Below are positions 32,803-41,333 of a DNA stretch of 64,000 nt, in pieces. The notes under the pieces were generated by a model, which saw only the letters and a program-made list of their open reading frames with translations, ran no database searches and had not been told where the DNA came from. Source of the DNA: Sulfurovum sp. (lineage in GTDB: Bacteria > Campylobacterota > Campylobacteria > Campylobacterales > Sulfurovaceae); the NCBI GenBank assembly GCA_021166685.1, contig JAJPEU010000015.1, forward strand, positions 62,001-126,000. The letters are read 5' to 3'. How positions within the stretch are numbered: position 1 is the first letter of the stretch; each line of letters begins with the position of its first letter. A program made the translations under genes and the position numbers.

Positions 32803-33633
32803 ATGTCTTTGACCGTATCGCTTGAAAAAAACCTGAACAAACAGATCCAAAAAATCGCCAAAAAGCATATGGAGCATATCATCGCTTTATGCGACGACAA
32901 AACCCTCTCTCAAGACAAAGCTATCCATCAGATCAGACGAAGGTTTAAAAAACTCCGCGCCCTGACGCATCTGCTGCAAAACGATCTTTCCAAAAGCTTT
33001 TTTAAAAAACAAAACCGCATTTTCAAAGAGTGCGCGCATTCGTTTTCTGCCTCAAGGGATCAAAAAGTGCTGGGGGACACCTATCTCAAAATCGTCCGAA
33101 AATACACTCTCGACGAACAAACCTATGATGCGATACTCCAAGCCATCCGATCGTCAAAACCCCCGCTCGATGCGAACCAATCCTTCCTTGACATCAAAGA
33201 ACGCCTGCAAAAAAACCTCAAAACCCTCAAACATTACAAAATGAAAAAAAACACAAAAGCGAATTTTCTCTCATGTCTGAAAAAGACGTATCAAAAAACC
33301 GACAAACTAAGAAAAACGGCTATCAAGAAAAAGAGCGATTTGTATTTTCACGAGTGGAGGAAGTGGGTGAACTACTACGGCTTTCAGCTTTTTATGATAG
33401 ACAAAAAAGAGTTTCAAAAAAAAGCAGAAGCTCTCAAATCTCTGGCGCACATCTTGGGAGATATCCACGATATCACGGTTTTTAAAGCATTTTTGCACAC
33501 GCTGGACACTCCTTTGGGCAAAGCGTTTGAGACGTTTTTAGACAAAGAGCAAGCGCTGCTTAAAGAGGAGGCACTAAAACTGGGGGAAGAGATTTTGCTT
33601 CATTCACTGTCTTCCGATAAGAAATGCACATAA
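32803..33633 (+). CDS. CHAD domain protein
   Basis: 'AIHQIRRRFKKLRALTHLL', 'FHEWRKWVNYYGFQL', 'LGDIHDITVFKAFL' conserved His/basic helices. Confidence 0.85.
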   Translation: MSLTVSLEKNLNKQIQKIAKKHMEHIIALCDDKTLSQDKAIHQIRRRFKKLRALTHLLQNDLSKSFFKKQNRIFKECAHSFSASRDQKVLGDTYLKIVRKYTLDEQTYDAILQAIRSSKPPLDANQSFLDIKERLQKNLKTLKHYKMKKNTKANFLSCLKKTYQKTDKLRKTAIKKKSDLYFHEWRKWVNYYGFQLFMIDKKEFQKKAEALKSLAHILGDIHDITVFKAFLHTLDTPLGKAFETFLDKEQALLKEEALKLGEEILLHSLSSDKKCT

Positions 33634-33687
33634 TGACCTTGGCTGACTCCTATAGTCTACTGTTGCTCCGTATAATGTTCCCATAAA

Positions 33688-35166
33688 TTATCCTATATCT
33701 CTTAATCTCTTAAATATTTCAACCATCGCCAAAGTATCTAATTTACAATACTCCAACAAAGCCTTTCTATAAGCCATTTTCTCTTCATCAGATAAATTAC
33801 TCATATTTGCATAGGCATTCATAGCTTCTCCACCATTATGGATTAAATCCAAATCTTTATAGGCTTTTTCCATTTCAGGTACCAAAGCAGGTAAAACATA
33901 CTTGATAGAGTAACTCCCTTGCATTGAAGGCGTTACATACCACTTCTTTTGAAATGGAACCATTAAATCTTGCATATTATCGTGTATGCTCATTAAATCA
34001 TAGGTAAACTCTCCATAGAGATTAGCCAACTTTCTAATCACACCTTTTTCAAAACTCATGTTATATGCCAAAACGGTAGCGTTTGAGGGTATATTTTCTA
34101 CCAAGCTTTTTGAGAGTTCATATCGTGGATCTACTCCATCATCAGCTAAAAACTCTTTATGTTCTAATCTTCCATCTTCATACTCAATATGCAATGAATA
34201 CTGAAAAGGTATCTGCTCATAGGGAGATAAGCCTTTAAACTCAGGAATTGCCTGTTGAAATGTTTCAAAGTCTAAGTGATAAATTGGATATGTTAGAGTT
34301 TTTAGAAACTCTTTGATTGATGTTTTGTCTATGTAAGTTTGTTTTGATTTGTAGTTATCAACCGCTGCTTTTTGATTAGCTGTTATCTCAAAATCATCGG
34401 GAATATCATCAACATCAACTATCCCTTGAAAATAAAGCTCTATTTGTTTTTTACTTCCAAGATTAAAAATATTGAAAATTGAATAATCGGGTATATTTCG
34501 CTGACACTTCCAACAATAATCAAGAGCCAAACATTCATAAGGATTTTTACAATGTTTTCCAATATCAATGTTTGGTTCATTTTCTCTATCAGCTAAATAA
34601 GCTTGAAATGTTTGTAGATTTGTTGGAACTGCTTCTTGAAGTGATATTATGGTTTGAGTTACATCTTCAACAACAAACAGCTCTTTTATATCAAGCTCAT
34701 CACATCTTACATAGTTACTATTAAGATAAACTACATTAGCACTTTTGATTTTATATCCAAGATTTTGTAAAGTGTAATATTGGATAGATACATCATGTAA
34801 ATAAATCTCTTTTAATGAAGTCGAACTTTTAACTTCATAGATTGAAATACCTTCACTATCCATTTCAAAAATATCTACGATAACAAGAGTATTTTCAAAA
34901 CTAAAAGCAGCTTCATATATAACAGATACACCACTATCTAAAAGCTTTTTAGTCTCTTTTACCATCTGCTCAAGATTTTGATTGAAATCTACTTTTACTC
35001 CATTTGGAAATAAATCACAAGCTAACTCTCCAACAGTATGTCCTGTTTTAAATCTAGTCTCTGCTGATTCATCAGCAGGTGCTAAAACCTCTGATTTGTA
35101 CTTTTTAAGCCATAGAGCTTTTGAACATTGGATGCCTGTTGTGTAGAGAGATTTAGAGAAAATCAT
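33688..35166 (-). CDS. DUF2779-like nuclease: Cas4-like PD-(D/E)XK + DEDD exonuclease domain
   Basis: 'IVDIFEM...IYEVKSST' PD-(D/E)XK; 'HCKNPYECLALDYCWKC' cysteine cluster; 'YHLDFETFQ', 'VLAYNMSFEKGV', 'YCKLDTLAMVEIFK' DEDD-type motifs. Confidence 0.82.
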   Translation of the reverse strand: MIFSKSLYTTGIQCSKALWLKKYKSEVLAPADESAETRFKTGHTVGELACDLFPNGVKVDFNQNLEQMVKETKKLLDSGVSVIYEAAFSFENTLVIVDIFEMDSEGISIYEVKSSTSLKEIYLHDVSIQYYTLQNLGYKIKSANVVYLNSNYVRCDELDIKELFVVEDVTQTIISLQEAVPTNLQTFQAYLADRENEPNIDIGKHCKNPYECLALDYCWKCQRNIPDYSIFNIFNLGSKKQIELYFQGIVDVDDIPDDFEITANQKAAVDNYKSKQTYIDKTSIKEFLKTLTYPIYHLDFETFQQAIPEFKGLSPYEQIPFQYSLHIEYEDGRLEHKEFLADDGVDPRYELSKSLVENIPSNATVLAYNMSFEKGVIRKLANLYGEFTYDLMSIHDNMQDLMVPFQKKWYVTPSMQGSYSIKYVLPALVPEMEKAYKDLDLIHNGGEAMNAYANMSNLSDEEKMAYRKALLEYCKLDTLAMVEIFKRLRDIG

Positions 35167-37844
35167 TTATATTTGATAATTTTATTAAATCTATGTTCGA
35201 GTGCATCTTCGCCGCCTTCCATGACTTGGCAAACAGAATCTCGAATATTATGTTCTTGTATCGTTCCCTCTTCTTTTATATTTATTTGTCCATTAACAAA
35301 ATGCATTTCAAAGATTTTTTCAGAAGCTGCATTTATTGGAATATTTGGGTTATGAGTTACTACAATGACTTGCCTTTTTTCTTTCAGCTGTCTTAGGCTA
35401 TCTACTATCAAATCTGTTATCATTCTGCTGTCTAAATCATCTTCAGGTTGATCAATGATTAATGGACCTTTAGTCTCAAGTAAAATATATGTCATTAATG
35501 CGGCAGCTTTTTGACCTGCTGATGCGCTATTTACATCTAAAGTTCTTCCATTAGCAATAATCTCAATAGTGAGTTTGTCTTTTGGAAACCAAGTATTCAA
35601 TGCATCTTCATTTACTTTATTTTTATAAATAGAAGCAAAGTGATTCGATAGTCTCGCTCCAAAATCAAAAGTATTATCAGAATTAGCCAATAAGATGTTA
35701 CTCTTTAATTCTTCTAATTTTTCTTCTATCGAGTCACTTTGTTGTAAATTCCATAAAATTCCTGAATTTTCATTGGTTCTATCATCAATTTGTAAAATTT
35801 GAGCTTCAAAAGCAGTGTCTTGTCGTTGAATTACTTTACGAAATTCTTCTTCACTACCAATAATGTCACCTAAGAATTTAATAGTAAATCTAACTCGTGT
35901 ATTAGTGAATAAACGTTCTAGATTACTATTTATTTCACGTATATAACTCTCACGCCTATTGTAAAGTTCTTCTCTTTTATCTTTTATAGTTATCAAAAGG
36001 GCATAGCTCATCTCAATTTGCTGTGATAACAAATGCTCTTTTTGATTGATTTCATGTAGTTTTTTCATAAGAGTTTCTTTAGTCTCTAATGCTACATTAT
36101 ATTGAGAAATATCGGTACCTTGATCTTGCAATTCTTTTGATAATTTTTCGAATTTAATTTTTGTATTTTCTTGATTTGTATTCCATTCAGATTCTTTCCA
36201 AATTTTTATCCATTCTTTTGCAGATTCATCCAACTTCTCTACTTGAGATCTTATATTTTCTTTTACGATTTCTATATTGGTTGTAATATTAGTAATATCA
36301 GGAGTAGTTTCATTTAAAAAATCTAATGTATTAAAATCTATATTGATATCAATCTTTTTAATACTTTCTTGTAAAAAATTAATATCATCGTATATTTTTC
36401 TGAGTTTCATACCTTCATTCTTAAATTGTGCATGATTTTTCAAAAGTTGTGAAAAATTATACTTTTCATATGTTTTTAATTTAGTATCTGTTTGTTTTAA
36501 TAACTCTTCAATTTTCTTTTTATCTGAAATGTCTTGTTGTAAATTTCTTTCAATTGACTTACTTTCTTCATATGCTTTGATTATTTGATTAAATTCCATT
36601 TCCCATGAAAAATAGTCTATTTTTACATCAATCAATGAAAAAATTTCTTCAGGATGGATAGCTTTATCAAAAAGCTCTTTTTGGGTAATTATAGTAACAG
36701 GGTAAAATTGTTGTATTGTTTTGTAGTCTATTTCATTATAGTTTCCGTTCTCAAATCTAAAATATTGTTCGAAAGTCTTTTTAAAGACAGTCTCTTCTTC
36801 TGATTGATGATATTGAAAATTAACTTCTATATTGTCATGTAACATTCCAGTGTTACGATTACCAGTTTTAAAAAAATCTTTCTTATCTGGATGACTGCTA
36901 TGTAAATCTTGATGTTCGCCATACGCAAATTGAAGCATTTTGATTATAGACGATTTACCGCTTCCTCTGCCACCTATTATAGTATTTAGCCATGGGGAAA
37001 ATTTCAAATTCAATGCTGTATTTCTTCCCATTTTATACGCATTTTTAATTGAGAGTTCACTTATATATGCCCATGAAATTTCATTTGGGTCTAGATTTGC
37101 AATAATATTATCACTACATAATACATTCTTGTTTAGTTTGTCACTTAATGCGACTTTTAAACCATCAAAAGTTGGCAATCCCATTTTTACATAAGTAAAT
37201 CTTCTGCCAATATTATTTAAATCGTGAGAATCTGAGCCGATTACTCTATGATGTTTTAATTTTAAATCTTTATATATTTGAGGTTGATCGAAATCTTTGT
37301 TTATTTGTTCAATTGCAAAAATATTTTCTTTTATACACGCATCTTTTAAAGTTTGCCCAGATAAGACTGTAAATATACCTTTTGCTTCATCTACATGAGC
37401 TGGAATTGTTAAGGTTTTATAATCATTATTTGAAATATCGAAAATTTCAGATAAAGATTTTCTTGTAATTGCTTCGATATTGCCTTCATCTCCATTAATT
37501 CCAACTGCACCTAAAAATGTTGATATTTTTTGTGAACTAGTATCCTCTGGAAATACTACCAATAAATGAATGCCATTATTTACAGTTAGTTCAATTGCAG
37601 GAAATATAATTAATTCTCTAAAGTTTACATGGTTTTCTTGTCGAAGTTGTATATATTCATTTTTTATAGCATCAATATTATTGCCAGTATTATGGTCAGA
37701 TATAACTACACAATCTAATTCCTTTTCCATGCATTTAAGTAACCAGCTTCTATGTGAATAATTTGGATCACTATAGTCTGAAGATGCATTAGTATGCATA
37801 TGAAAATCAATTTTATACCATTTAGTACCGTTTATATTTGCCAT
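35163..37844 (-). CDS. PHP-domain / SMC-like ATPase (TrlF / Ppl-like)
   Basis: PHP motifs 'DFHMHTNASSD','ISDHN','GSDSHD'; 'GGRGSGKSSI' Walker A, 'SASAGQKAA' signature, 'GPLIIDQPEDDLDS' Walker B; central coiled coil. Confidence 0.88.
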   Translation of the reverse strand: MANINGTKWYKIDFHMHTNASSDYSDPNYSHRSWLLKCMEKELDCVVISDHNTGNNIDAIKNEYIQLRQENHVNFRELIIFPAIELTVNNGIHLLVVFPEDTSSQKISTFLGAVGINGDEGNIEAITRKSLSEIFDISNNDYKTLTIPAHVDEAKGIFTVLSGQTLKDACIKENIFAIEQINKDFDQPQIYKDLKLKHHRVIGSDSHDLNNIGRRFTYVKMGLPTFDGLKVALSDKLNKNVLCSDNIIANLDPNEISWAYISELSIKNAYKMGRNTALNLKFSPWLNTIIGGRGSGKSSIIKMLQFAYGEHQDLHSSHPDKKDFFKTGNRNTGMLHDNIEVNFQYHQSEEETVFKKTFEQYFRFENGNYNEIDYKTIQQFYPVTIITQKELFDKAIHPEEIFSLIDVKIDYFSWEMEFNQIIKAYEESKSIERNLQQDISDKKKIEELLKQTDTKLKTYEKYNFSQLLKNHAQFKNEGMKLRKIYDDINFLQESIKKIDINIDFNTLDFLNETTPDITNITTNIEIVKENIRSQVEKLDESAKEWIKIWKESEWNTNQENTKIKFEKLSKELQDQGTDISQYNVALETKETLMKKLHEINQKEHLLSQQIEMSYALLITIKDKREELYNRRESYIREINSNLERLFTNTRVRFTIKFLGDIIGSEEEFRKVIQRQDTAFEAQILQIDDRTNENSGILWNLQQSDSIEEKLEELKSNILLANSDNTFDFGARLSNHFASIYKNKVNEDALNTWFPKDKLTIEIIANGRTLDVNSASAGQKAAALMTYILLETKGPLIIDQPEDDLDSRMITDLIVDSLRQLKEKRQVIVVTHNPNIPINAASEKIFEMHFVNGQINIKEEGTIQEHNIRDSVCQVMEGGEDALEHRFNKIIKYK

Positions 37845-37858
37845 TTATATCCTTAATT

Positions 37859-40228
37859 TTAAATTTCAACAACTCTCTCAAGCATCTCTTTGATATCCAT
37901 CTCATGGGATATTAAAAATATCTGTCTATATTGCTCTTTAATAGTATGAAATGCCTCTAAAATTTCCATTCTTCTACTTTCATCTTGACTCCCAAATACT
38001 TCATCAAATGCCAAAAAGCCGATATTGCCTGCACCACTAAGTTCACCTAATGTTTTTGAGATAGCAATTCTAAGAACCAAATTTGCAAGATCCACTTCAC
38101 CACCGCTAAATCTCTCAATCGGAAACTTTTGTCCTTCATCATAGATATAAAAGTCAAAGTCGTTATCTACTTCGATATGTTGATACTTCCCTTTAGTAAT
38201 TTGAGAATACATCGTTGAAGCTATTTGAGATATTCTAGGAGCTACTTTTGAATTGAGTTTTGTTTTAAACTCACTCAAAGATATTTTTATCTTCTCGTAG
38301 TCGCTCAAGTCTTGTTGCTTGGTAGCTAGTTTTGCTTGATGCTCTTTGTTTGTATCAAGTGCAGATTGAAGTGTTTTTATCTCTCCGTCTATCGAAGCGA
38401 TTTGCACTTTAAGGTCATTGATGCTCGTGGCCAATTCCTCTTTTTGTTTTTGAAGTGTTGCAAACTCATCAACTTTTGTTTTATAGTTTGTTTCATCATA
38501 CACAACCGCTTTTATCTCAAGCTCTTTAGCAATATAGGTAGTTGATTTTTCTTCAATCGCTTTTTTTAGCTCATCCGACTCTTTTTGAAGTACCGGTACT
38601 CTTTGAATTAAAGTTTGAAGTTTTTGGTATGTGTCAAATTTTGGTTTTAAAACCTGCTCTTTTTGTATCAAATCTTGATGCAATTTGTCATCATAAGCAT
38701 ATTTTGAAAGTTCTTCAAGCTCTTTTTTGTTTTGAATCCCTTTTGTTTCTACCTCTTTAAAATATCCATTTGCTTTGATAAAGTCTTTTTGTTTTGTTTC
38801 GATGATGGTAAGTTGCTTATGTATCTCCTGAAGCTGCTCGTCTAACTCCTCTTTTTGTTTAGATAACATATCTTTTGAGCTTTCTACTTTTGACAGCTCT
38901 TGGGTTTGTTTATCGATTTTCTCTTTTTGGATAGCCTCTATAGTGTTTGACAGATTTGCTATTACTTTGTCATACTCTTCAAGGAGCGGTCTAGTGCATG
39001 TGGGACAGTTTGAACCCTTGCCTATTTTTTCAATCTCTGCAATCTGGGCTTTTGTAGTGTCGATGAGTTTTTGCTCACCTGATAGTGAAGAACTGATAGC
39101 TTTTATTTGAGCTTCATACTCTTTGATGCTGGTTTGAAGTTTATCCACTTCATTTTTTATCTGCTGTTGTTTTAACTGTAAGCTTGCATAATCTTTTACT
39201 TCAAGTTCTAATGCGGCAATATCATTTTTAGCTTTTGTATATTGCTCCCTTAGTTGAATCTGCTCTTTATTTAACCCATCAATTTTGAGCTGTATCTCTT
39301 TGAGCTGCTGCTGCTCTTTGAGTTGTATTTGCAACTGTTCAAACTCTTGTTTTACTGGCTCTAAAGCTGTTAGTTCTTTTTGCTTTTGGTGTAAGTCTGA
39401 AAGCTCAGATGAAAGTTTAGCTTGTTGGAGTTTATTAGATTCCAGAGTATTTTTTATGAGTTCTAGTTCACTCAAGAGTTTTGTTTTATGCTCTTTTGTT
39501 TTTTGCAAAAGGTCGAGCTCTTTTTTAGCCTCAATCTCTTTTAATTTTAAAGTTTCCAACTCTTTTGATTTTGAAGTTAAATTTTTATTGATTAGAGTTT
39601 TATTTTCATTGTGAGCTTTTATTGCACTCTCTTTAGCAGCTATCTCATCACTACTTAGTAATACCTCTCTAAAAGCATCTATCTCTCTTTTAAGTCCTCT
39701 GCTTTTTTCGACAAGCATAGTTTCAATAGTATCAATCTTCTCCAGCCCTAGTAGCTTTCTAATCATCTTTTTTCTATCTTCGGGTTTTAGGTTGCTAAGG
39801 CTTGTAAGTTCCTTTTGAGAAGCAAACAGTGTGTGCATAAAGGCATCTTTGCCCATCTTTACAAGTTTTGCGATGGTGTTTGTCACCTCTTTGGCTCCGT
39901 TGGAGATGAGCGCATCATTTTTATACAGTTTTGCATTGGCTGTGAGGGTTTTGCCTCTAAATTCTCTGATCACTTTGTAAGTAGCGCTATCAAACTCAAA
40001 CTCCAGCGTGACGCTTACAGGCTCTTTTTCACTAACACTTGAATTTCGTATCAGTTCTTTTGCGCCTTTGTTTTTTAGCTCTCCGTAAAGTGCAAAAAGT
40101 ATCGCTTCAAATATGGTGGATTTGCCGCTTCCGTTTTTTCCGATGATGCCGGTCAGCCCCTCCTCAAAGGAAAAGCTTTTTTGGGTGTACTTTTTAAAGT
40201 TTAACAGTTCAAGATTATTCAGTATCAC
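37859..40228 (-). CDS. Rad50/SbcC-like ATPase with zinc hook (probable GTG start at 40228; ORF extends to 40243)
   Basis: 'IIGKNGSGKSTIFEAILFALYGE', hook 'CPTCTRPL', signature 'RFSGGEVDLANLVLRIA', 'LAFDEVFGSQDESRR'. Confidence 0.92.
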   Translation of the reverse strand: MILNNLELLNFKKYTQKSFSFEEGLTGIIGKNGSGKSTIFEAILFALYGELKNKGAKELIRNSSVSEKEPVSVTLEFEFDSATYKVIREFRGKTLTANAKLYKNDALISNGAKEVTNTIAKLVKMGKDAFMHTLFASQKELTSLSNLKPEDRKKMIRKLLGLEKIDTIETMLVEKSRGLKREIDAFREVLLSSDEIAAKESAIKAHNENKTLINKNLTSKSKELETLKLKEIEAKKELDLLQKTKEHKTKLLSELELIKNTLESNKLQQAKLSSELSDLHQKQKELTALEPVKQEFEQLQIQLKEQQQLKEIQLKIDGLNKEQIQLREQYTKAKNDIAALELEVKDYASLQLKQQQIKNEVDKLQTSIKEYEAQIKAISSSLSGEQKLIDTTKAQIAEIEKIGKGSNCPTCTRPLLEEYDKVIANLSNTIEAIQKEKIDKQTQELSKVESSKDMLSKQKEELDEQLQEIHKQLTIIETKQKDFIKANGYFKEVETKGIQNKKELEELSKYAYDDKLHQDLIQKEQVLKPKFDTYQKLQTLIQRVPVLQKESDELKKAIEEKSTTYIAKELEIKAVVYDETNYKTKVDEFATLQKQKEELATSINDLKVQIASIDGEIKTLQSALDTNKEHQAKLATKQQDLSDYEKIKISLSEFKTKLNSKVAPRISQIASTMYSQITKGKYQHIEVDNDFDFYIYDEGQKFPIERFSGGEVDLANLVLRIAISKTLGELSGAGNIGFLAFDEVFGSQDESRRMEILEAFHTIKEQYRQIFLISHEMDIKEMLERVVEI

Positions 40229-41333
40229 TGTACACCTCTTCATAAGTGCTGAAAAGCTCTTGCACTTTTGATTTTAGCCTATCAAACTCTTGTCCTTGAC
40301 TCTCTTCTTTGATATGCTCCAGAAAATAATCTTCCAATGAAAGCGATTCGATATCCTCGATCGTTTTTGCTTCGCCAGAGGTTTTAAACTCTCTTTTGAC
40401 ATTGACATAGAGACTGCCTTCAAAAATCTTTTTGATATCCGCCGTATTGATATCAATCGATTGCAGTGTTGTAAGATTTACAAGCTTTGCATCGATAATG
40501 GCGTCTTTAATGCCCGATAAATCCAACGCTTCTACACTTTTCTCAAAATCCCCGCAATCGATTTGAAACTCTAAAATCGGTCTGATTCTAATCTCTTTGT
40601 ATGCGATACTTAAGGCATCTTCTATCGTTACAAGTGCGAACCCTTTTGAATTTCGCTTGTCATTGAGACTTGTGCGCTCCGTACTTCCGCTGTAGTAAAC
40701 ATTCTCATATTTTCCGACTTTCCCAAAACCGTGCCAATGTCCAAGAGCTACATAATCCATTTTTGAAAAGATATACTCTTTCTCTGTCGGATAGACCCAC
40801 TCTCCAAACTCTTGCATGAGATACCATGCTCCAACACTGCAGTGCATCATCATTATATTTTTTTTACCATCATCAATTGACTCTTCACAAAGCTCTATTT
40901 GAGAAAGTGCTTTTGTGTCATCATTCATGTGTGGCAGACAATGAAATACAATATTTTCAAATTCTATTTTTTTATATTGCTGATCATAAGAGACATAGAT
41001 GTTTTCAAAATTTTCAAATATTTTTAGAATGGGGCTGCTTAGATTAGTTCTTGGGGTAGAGTGATTTCCTGCAATGAGGATAAATGGAATATTTAGAGAA
41101 TTGATTATTTTAAATTGCTCCAAGGCAAACGTGATGGCCCTGTTGCTGGGGCTGGCCCTGTGAAACAGATCTCCGGTGTGGATGATATAATCGGGCCTGA
41201 TTTGTTTGATCTGCTCGACAACCTGAACAAACGCATCGTAAAAATCCGCTTCTCTTTGGTTGATGTTGTCCTCGTTGATGACATCTAAATCGTTAAAACC
41301 CAAATGGGTATCGCTAAAGTGAACTATCTTCAT
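40215..41333 (-). CDS. Mre11/SbcD-like nuclease
   Basis: 'HFSDTHLGFND', 'IHTGDLFHRASPSN', 'IAGNHSTPR', 'VALGHWHGF', 'YYSGSTERTS'. Confidence 0.92.
   Translation of the reverse strand: MKIVHFSDTHLGFNDLDVINEDNINQREADFYDAFVQVVEQIKQIRPDYIIHTGDLFHRASPSNRAITFALEQFKIINSLNIPFILIAGNHSTPRTNLSSPILKIFENFENIYVSYDQQYKKIEFENIVFHCLPHMNDDTKALSQIELCEESIDDGKKNIMMMHCSVGAWYLMQEFGEWVYPTEKEYIFSKMDYVALGHWHGFGKVGKYENVYYSGSTERTSLNDKRNSKGFALVTIEDALSIAYKEIRIRPILEFQIDCGDFEKSVEALDLSGIKDAIIDAKLVNLTTLQSIDINTADIKKIFEGSLYVNVKREFKTSGEAKTIEDIESLSLEDYFLEHIKEESQGQEFDRLKSKVQELFSTYEEVYSDTE

Follow-up and report, generated by a model that had tools for sequence, protein, structure and literature searches.

An end-processing nuclease operon of Campylobacterota brackets an exchangeable slot for predicted anti-phage systems

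Conserved flanks around variable, unrelated defence systems are already known from the core defence hotspots and defence islands of Pseudomonas (PMC10250203) and E. coli (PMC10121019), and a single enzyme set, an MBL nuclease with a protease acquired by the system, is found repeatedly joined to Hachiman, Lamassu and DRT in the nuclease-protease pairs of unrelated defence systems (PMC12799240). SbcCD is known to cleave blocked ends and hairpins (PMC6265447), and the sensing and processing of DNA ends is a theme of the Ppl, Gabija and Lamassu systems (reviewed in PMC12904381). The window analysed here, a stretch of 64,000 nucleotides from a 1.8 Mb genome of the Campylobacterota, contains an operon that resembles both arrangements. 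Unlike those of core defence hotspots, however, its flanks are DNA nucleases in the cargo's own tight operon, and the frame that they form moves among sites and plasmids in two versions, built on Mre11-Rad50 (MR) or on SbcCD; and, in contrast to the nuclease-protease pairs, it is entire systems that MR or SbcCD and the nuclease DUF2779 enclose, and none of the frames shows a fusion, with L211 as the one possible exception. Such an operonic DNA-end nuclease frame with a swappable slot, in MR and SbcCD versions, is not described in the literature searched, in which we found neither a role of DUF2779 in defence nor SbcCD with interchangeable systems (subscription papers and preprints lay outside the coverage).

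The locus consists of four minus-strand genes packed end to end. An Mre11-like (SbcD-like) nuclease gene (40215..41333, 372 aa) forms the 5′ end of the frame and overlaps by 29 nt the second frame gene, which encodes a Rad50/SbcC-like ATPase (37859..40243, 794 aa); after a gap of 14 nt follows the present slot cargo, a PHP-SMC gene for a Ppl-like PHP-phosphoesterase/SMC-type ATPase of the TrlF family (35163..37844, 893 aa), joined by a 4-nt ATGA overlap to the 3′ gene of the frame, the DUF2779 nuclease gene with its PD-(D/E)XK and DEDD regions (33688..35166, 492 aa). The exchangeable slot extends from the Rad50 stop to the DUF2779 start (35167..37858, minus strand), and homology to loci L077 and L080 breaks off and restarts at its two edges. 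ORF calls were mechanical, and several of the loci compared below were drawn from metagenome assemblies. An earlier note on this DNA had given all of the gene coordinates and junctions correctly, and its gene identities agree with profile searches, which return a calcineurin-like Mre11, a Rad50/SbcC-like protein, a TrlF/Ppl PHP-SMC protein and DUF2779.

The first two proteins have the hallmarks of the Mre11-Rad50 superfamily: the metal ligands of the calcineurin-like Mre11 (D8, H10, D55, N90, H91, H164, H199 and H201) are invariant in an alignment of 13 relatives, and the Rad50-like translation includes a Walker A motif (GKNGSGKST), a zinc hook (CPTC) and a signature motif (FSGGE). Domain architecture and catalytic residues are thus shared with the SbcCD/Mre11-Rad50 repair nuclease, whereas the window pair belongs to a patchy, distant subfamily with defence cargo. 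The Mre11-like protein scores 68.8 bits against the SbcD equivalog TIGR00619 (cut-off 77.65), the Rad50-like protein 99.9 bits against the SbcC equivalog TIGR00618 (cut-off 478.5), and the pair also falls below the cut-off of the Rad50 equivalog; of the 400 genomes sampled from the order, only 70 have close Mre11 relatives, at 73 places. This patchy distribution and the sub-threshold SbcC, SbcD and Rad50 scores set the pair apart from an ordinary, vertically inherited SbcCD. At one locus (L134), a gene for a PDC-M62A-like ATPase and a 368-aa gene lie between Mre11 and Rad50 rather than 3′ of Rad50.

The DUF2779 protein matches PF11074 with 156 bits (gathering score 23.3) and conserves PD-(D/E)XK residues (D98/E111/K113), DEDD residues (D299/E301/D400/D477) and four cysteines (C14/C206/C212/C218) like those of Cas4/AddB Fe-S nucleases. 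Its AlphaFold model, of modest confidence (pLDDT 73), shows likeness to Cas4/MGME1 and to a PolC-type exonuclease in Foldseek (probability 0.95-0.99 with weak E-values of 0.02-0.04), including Cas4 4r5q (probability 0.99, weak E 0.02) and the PolC exonuclease 2p1j (probability 0.99, weak E 0.04). The protein therefore resembles a two-domain nuclease, with a putative N-terminal Cas4/AddB-like PD-(D/E)XK domain and a putative C-terminal DEDD exonuclease. DUF2779 is present in 124 of the 400 genomes and also occurs in the absence of MR, adjoining other defence genes. Outside the Campylobacterota, where sampling was of plasmids, the DUF2779 genes of Selenomonas, Planktothrix, Sphingobium and Diaphorobacter plasmids are never beside SbcCD, their neighbours being ATPases, WYL proteins or helicases. 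An intact DUF2779 gene in genome G183 is preceded, some 3 kb upstream, by a 23-codon Mre11 remnant (C8:252613-252681), which suggests that MR was deleted from a frame.

The slot of the window holds a candidate TrlF/Ppl-type defence system. The PHP-SMC protein is a member of the TrlF family (NF045780, 507.7 bits over residues 5-889, cut-off 350) and matches the PADLOC Ppl model over its full length (E 7e-107); the link to defence drawn in the earlier note is supported. It thus shares its family with the single-gene PHP-ATPase defence systems TrlF and Ppl, but differs from them in sitting between MR and DUF2779 and in scoring below the Ppl anti-phage equivalog NF042955 (457.4 bits, cut-off 1000). 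A dedicated four-protein system, with Mre11-Rad50 as the sensor or processor of DNA that specifically licenses a TrlF effector, is very improbable: the same set does recur at L198, L206, L210 and L187, and in an SbcCD version at L213, yet TrlF relatives without MR exist in the order, and the frames closest to that of the window in MR and DUF2779 (84-92% identical) carry Gabija or Pycsar-like cargo. The pairing of an MR sensor with a PHP-ATPase effector, offered as an example in the earlier note, is accordingly rejected as a specific partnership on the cargo diversity of near-identical frames, which hold Gabija, Hachiman, OLD and others instead; a general partnership between frame and cargo is possible. 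Of the single functional module suggested earlier, the tight nuclease/ATPase operon stands, but the four proteins are no dedicated module, and many other cargos can take the place of TrlF.

Across the Campylobacterota, the frame recurs with Mre11-Rad50 at its 5′ end and DUF2779 at its 3′ end. Among the matches listed, which cover 98 of the 124 DUF2779-bearing genomes, DUF2779 lies within 20 kb of a close Mre11 at 25 of 73 places, in every case on the same strand and downstream; for distant SbcD the corresponding figures are 13 of 43 places, 12 of the 13 being on one strand with DUF2779 downstream. Unlinked genes in genomes of about 2 Mb would give about one pair per set, with random strands, and the 25 uniformly oriented places therefore place the linkage beyond chance, although frames that share a genus do not count as independent evidence of it. 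Of the gene order that the earlier note proposed to test, the part made up of MR and DUF2779 recurs and the middle gene varies; since the order repeats and the pair is patchy and below cut-off, the genes are neither chance neighbours nor ordinary SbcCD, the two readings that the earlier note had set against its own. The frame is not obligatory, as 48 of the 73 close MR places listed are without DUF2779 nearby and many are without cargo.

Of the 108 slot genes in the 42 frames compiled, 104 point in the direction of the frame; the median gap from Rad50 to cargo is 18.5 nt and that from cargo to DUF2779 is 0.5 nt, with 20 of 40 abutting or overlapping. In the Arcobacteraceae, bacterial SbcCD takes the place of Mre11-Rad50. 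These features bear on the main rival to cooperation between frame and cargo, a mere recombination hotspot, in which the 3′ end of Mre11-Rad50 or SbcCD would be a safe, co-transcribed landing site, its conserved flanks permitting exchange through homologous recombination, while the frame nucleases perform ordinary repair and do nothing for the cargo. The many MR places without cargo or DUF2779 fit such a landing site, and there is precedent in known core defence hotspots that hold unrelated systems (PMC10250203); near-total co-orientation and start/stop overlaps, however, go beyond what a landing site needs, and two distantly related nuclease pairs fill one role with the same DUF2779, which suggests that end-processing activity matters.

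The cargos themselves, named by profile similarity (PADLOC/Pfam), include Gabija, Lamassu/ABC-3C, a TIR and cyclase pair that we infer to be Pycsar-like, OLD, Hachiman, an HNH effector, KAP and NACHT NTPases, PDC-S06, DRT UG6, SIR2-HerA, Mokosh-type MkoA, PDC-M49A/M62A, Qat and a PDC-S53 helicase. A PADLOC-recognised cargo, matched directly or through BLAST to such matches, is present in about 30 of the 42 frames. Matches of the first slot genes extend to 161 PADLOC families, of which the most frequent turn up in 7-10 of 39 members, whereas position-matched control genes upstream of Mre11/SbcD match 18, each in one or two members. To judge from these profiles, nearly every genome has its own slot content, in most cases a known defence system. 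Two NACHT-type NTPase cargos without a PADLOC match, recognised through Pfam (L208) or by eye (L201), are candidate undescribed defence genes. The diversity of cargo mechanisms fits the landing-site explanation; moreover, a single biochemical pathway common to all is made less likely by the Pycsar-like, DRT and NACHT cargos, whose connection with DNA ends is not obvious, and the cooperation model is weakened accordingly.

Such cargos, having no need of help with DNA ends, are also compatible with a layered defence, in which Mre11-Rad50 and DUF2779 would be an anti-phage or anti-plasmid nuclease system in their own right and the slot would add an independent second system under the same promoter. 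Near-empty slots (44 nt at L222, one 90-aa ORF at L122) and the defence association of DUF2779 by itself point in the same direction, but empty frames are rare and possibly decayed, MR is often without DUF2779, and PADLOC has no model for MR with DUF2779; we regard this explanation as unlikely. At L211 (4084-6390), the open frame that follows Rad50 after 43 nt is 768 aa long and includes DUF2779, which may reflect an N-terminal fusion or a near-empty slot.

Comparison of related frames indicates how the slot is refilled. Between the window and L077, from another family, homology runs from the Mre11 ATG to 12 nt beyond the Rad50 stop (82%), is lost over TrlF versus Gabija, and returns exactly at the DUF2779 start (92%). 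In the Sulfurospirillum group, L197/L199 and L198/L200 each share a chromosomal site with homologous chromosome outside and unlike cargo inside, the breakpoints falling within some 10 nt of the end of Rad50 and of the beginning of DUF2779, and SbcCD frames on Aliarcobacter plasmids have like exchange edges; inspection of the slot edges by eye for a conserved short recombination motif revealed none beyond the coding edges. At the same site in the congener G315 (L223), HlyD, Mre11, Rad50 and CHAD occur without TrlF and DUF2779, and 73 bp there correspond to 4.26 kb in the window (33597..37856), so cargo and DUF2779 have been gained or lost as one unit; in another congener (G273) the same MR is followed by three other genes up to the contig end. 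L197/L199, L198/L200 and the window versus L223 thus each display, at one site, the fixed flanks and variable defence content by which core defence hotspots are recognised. Same-site exchange between conserved flanks is what a mere hotspot predicts; against it, the frame is met with at many differing sites, on chromosomes as well as plasmids, and travels as one unit, the homology of window and L077 beginning at the Mre11 ATG. On balance, the landing-site explanation is plausible but rather doubtful.

Cargo turnover is also evident from identity. Nine Sulfurospirillum-group frames, 91-98% identical in Mre11 and 90-94% in DUF2779, hold nine cargos, and among frame pairs with Mre11 at least 75% identical the cargo differs in 70 of 73. 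Cargo labels change 23 times on the Mre11 tree versus 21.8 times when shuffled, and cargo is therefore not inherited alongside MR; SIR2-HerA cargo DNA is 81.5% identical between L086 and L119, whose MR genes are 68-71% identical. The divergences of Mre11 and DUF2779 are correlated (Mantel r 0.57, 0/5000 permutations, uncorrected for species relatedness). Remnants of the DUF2779 5′ end, 25-79 codons long, lie between successive cargos at L206, L214, L215, L079 and L203, apparent scars of stacked cargo-DUF2779 cassettes, and at L078 (8743-8838) a bacterial-type SbcC has left its final 31 codons and stop codon immediately 3′ of the stop of the MR-type Rad50, a trace of transfer from an SbcCD frame to an MR frame. 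Cassette exchange in the slot is, in all, well supported and very likely.

Three genomes carry two frames with differing cargos: G120 (L077/L078), G172 (L198/L199) and G242 (L203/L204). On an Aliarcobacter plasmid (L238, NZ_CP099557.1), annotated macrolide resistance genes lie within a few kb of an SbcCD-cargo-DUF2779 frame. A phage-borne element is unsupported, as the viral contigs searched contain no DUF2779 relatives, with Mre11 matches there only distant and SbcD-like, and phage records hold partial DUF2779 only.

The explanation that we favour, though we put it a little short of probable, is a modular defence locus, in which an end-processing frame surrounds an exchangeable anti-phage slot and adds a general function for the cargo. 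Frame and cargo would be co-transcribed, and the exchange of cargo would proceed by homologous recombination within the conserved flanks, Rad50/SbcC on one side and DUF2779 on the other; Mre11-Rad50 may cut protein-blocked or hairpin phage DNA to expose ends, DUF2779 may trim or degrade these, and the cargo would supply specificity or killing. With the TrlF cargo, the frame could feed 3′-OH/ssDNA ends to the PHP exonuclease. The opening of blocked ends by SbcCD (PMC6265447), and the description of Ppl, Gabija and Lamassu as sensors of DNA ends (PMC12904381), make such cooperation between frame nucleases and cargo plausible, but we advance it tentatively, with the plain hotspot and the layered defence as serious rivals. 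With like reserve, we suggest that MR or SbcCD with DUF2779 may constitute a general potentiator chassis by which numerous unrelated anti-phage systems would be licensed or raised in activity, with cassette exchange built in.

In summary, this modular reading makes a general question testable, namely whether housekeeping-type end-processing nucleases potentiate unrelated defence systems, and offers a rule for discovery, by which unknown genes between MR or SbcCD and DUF2779, such as the cargos of L201, L208, L216 and L220, are strong candidates for new defence genes. If it is true, bacteria exchange entire immune systems within a single fixed operon that itself encodes DNA-end nucleases.
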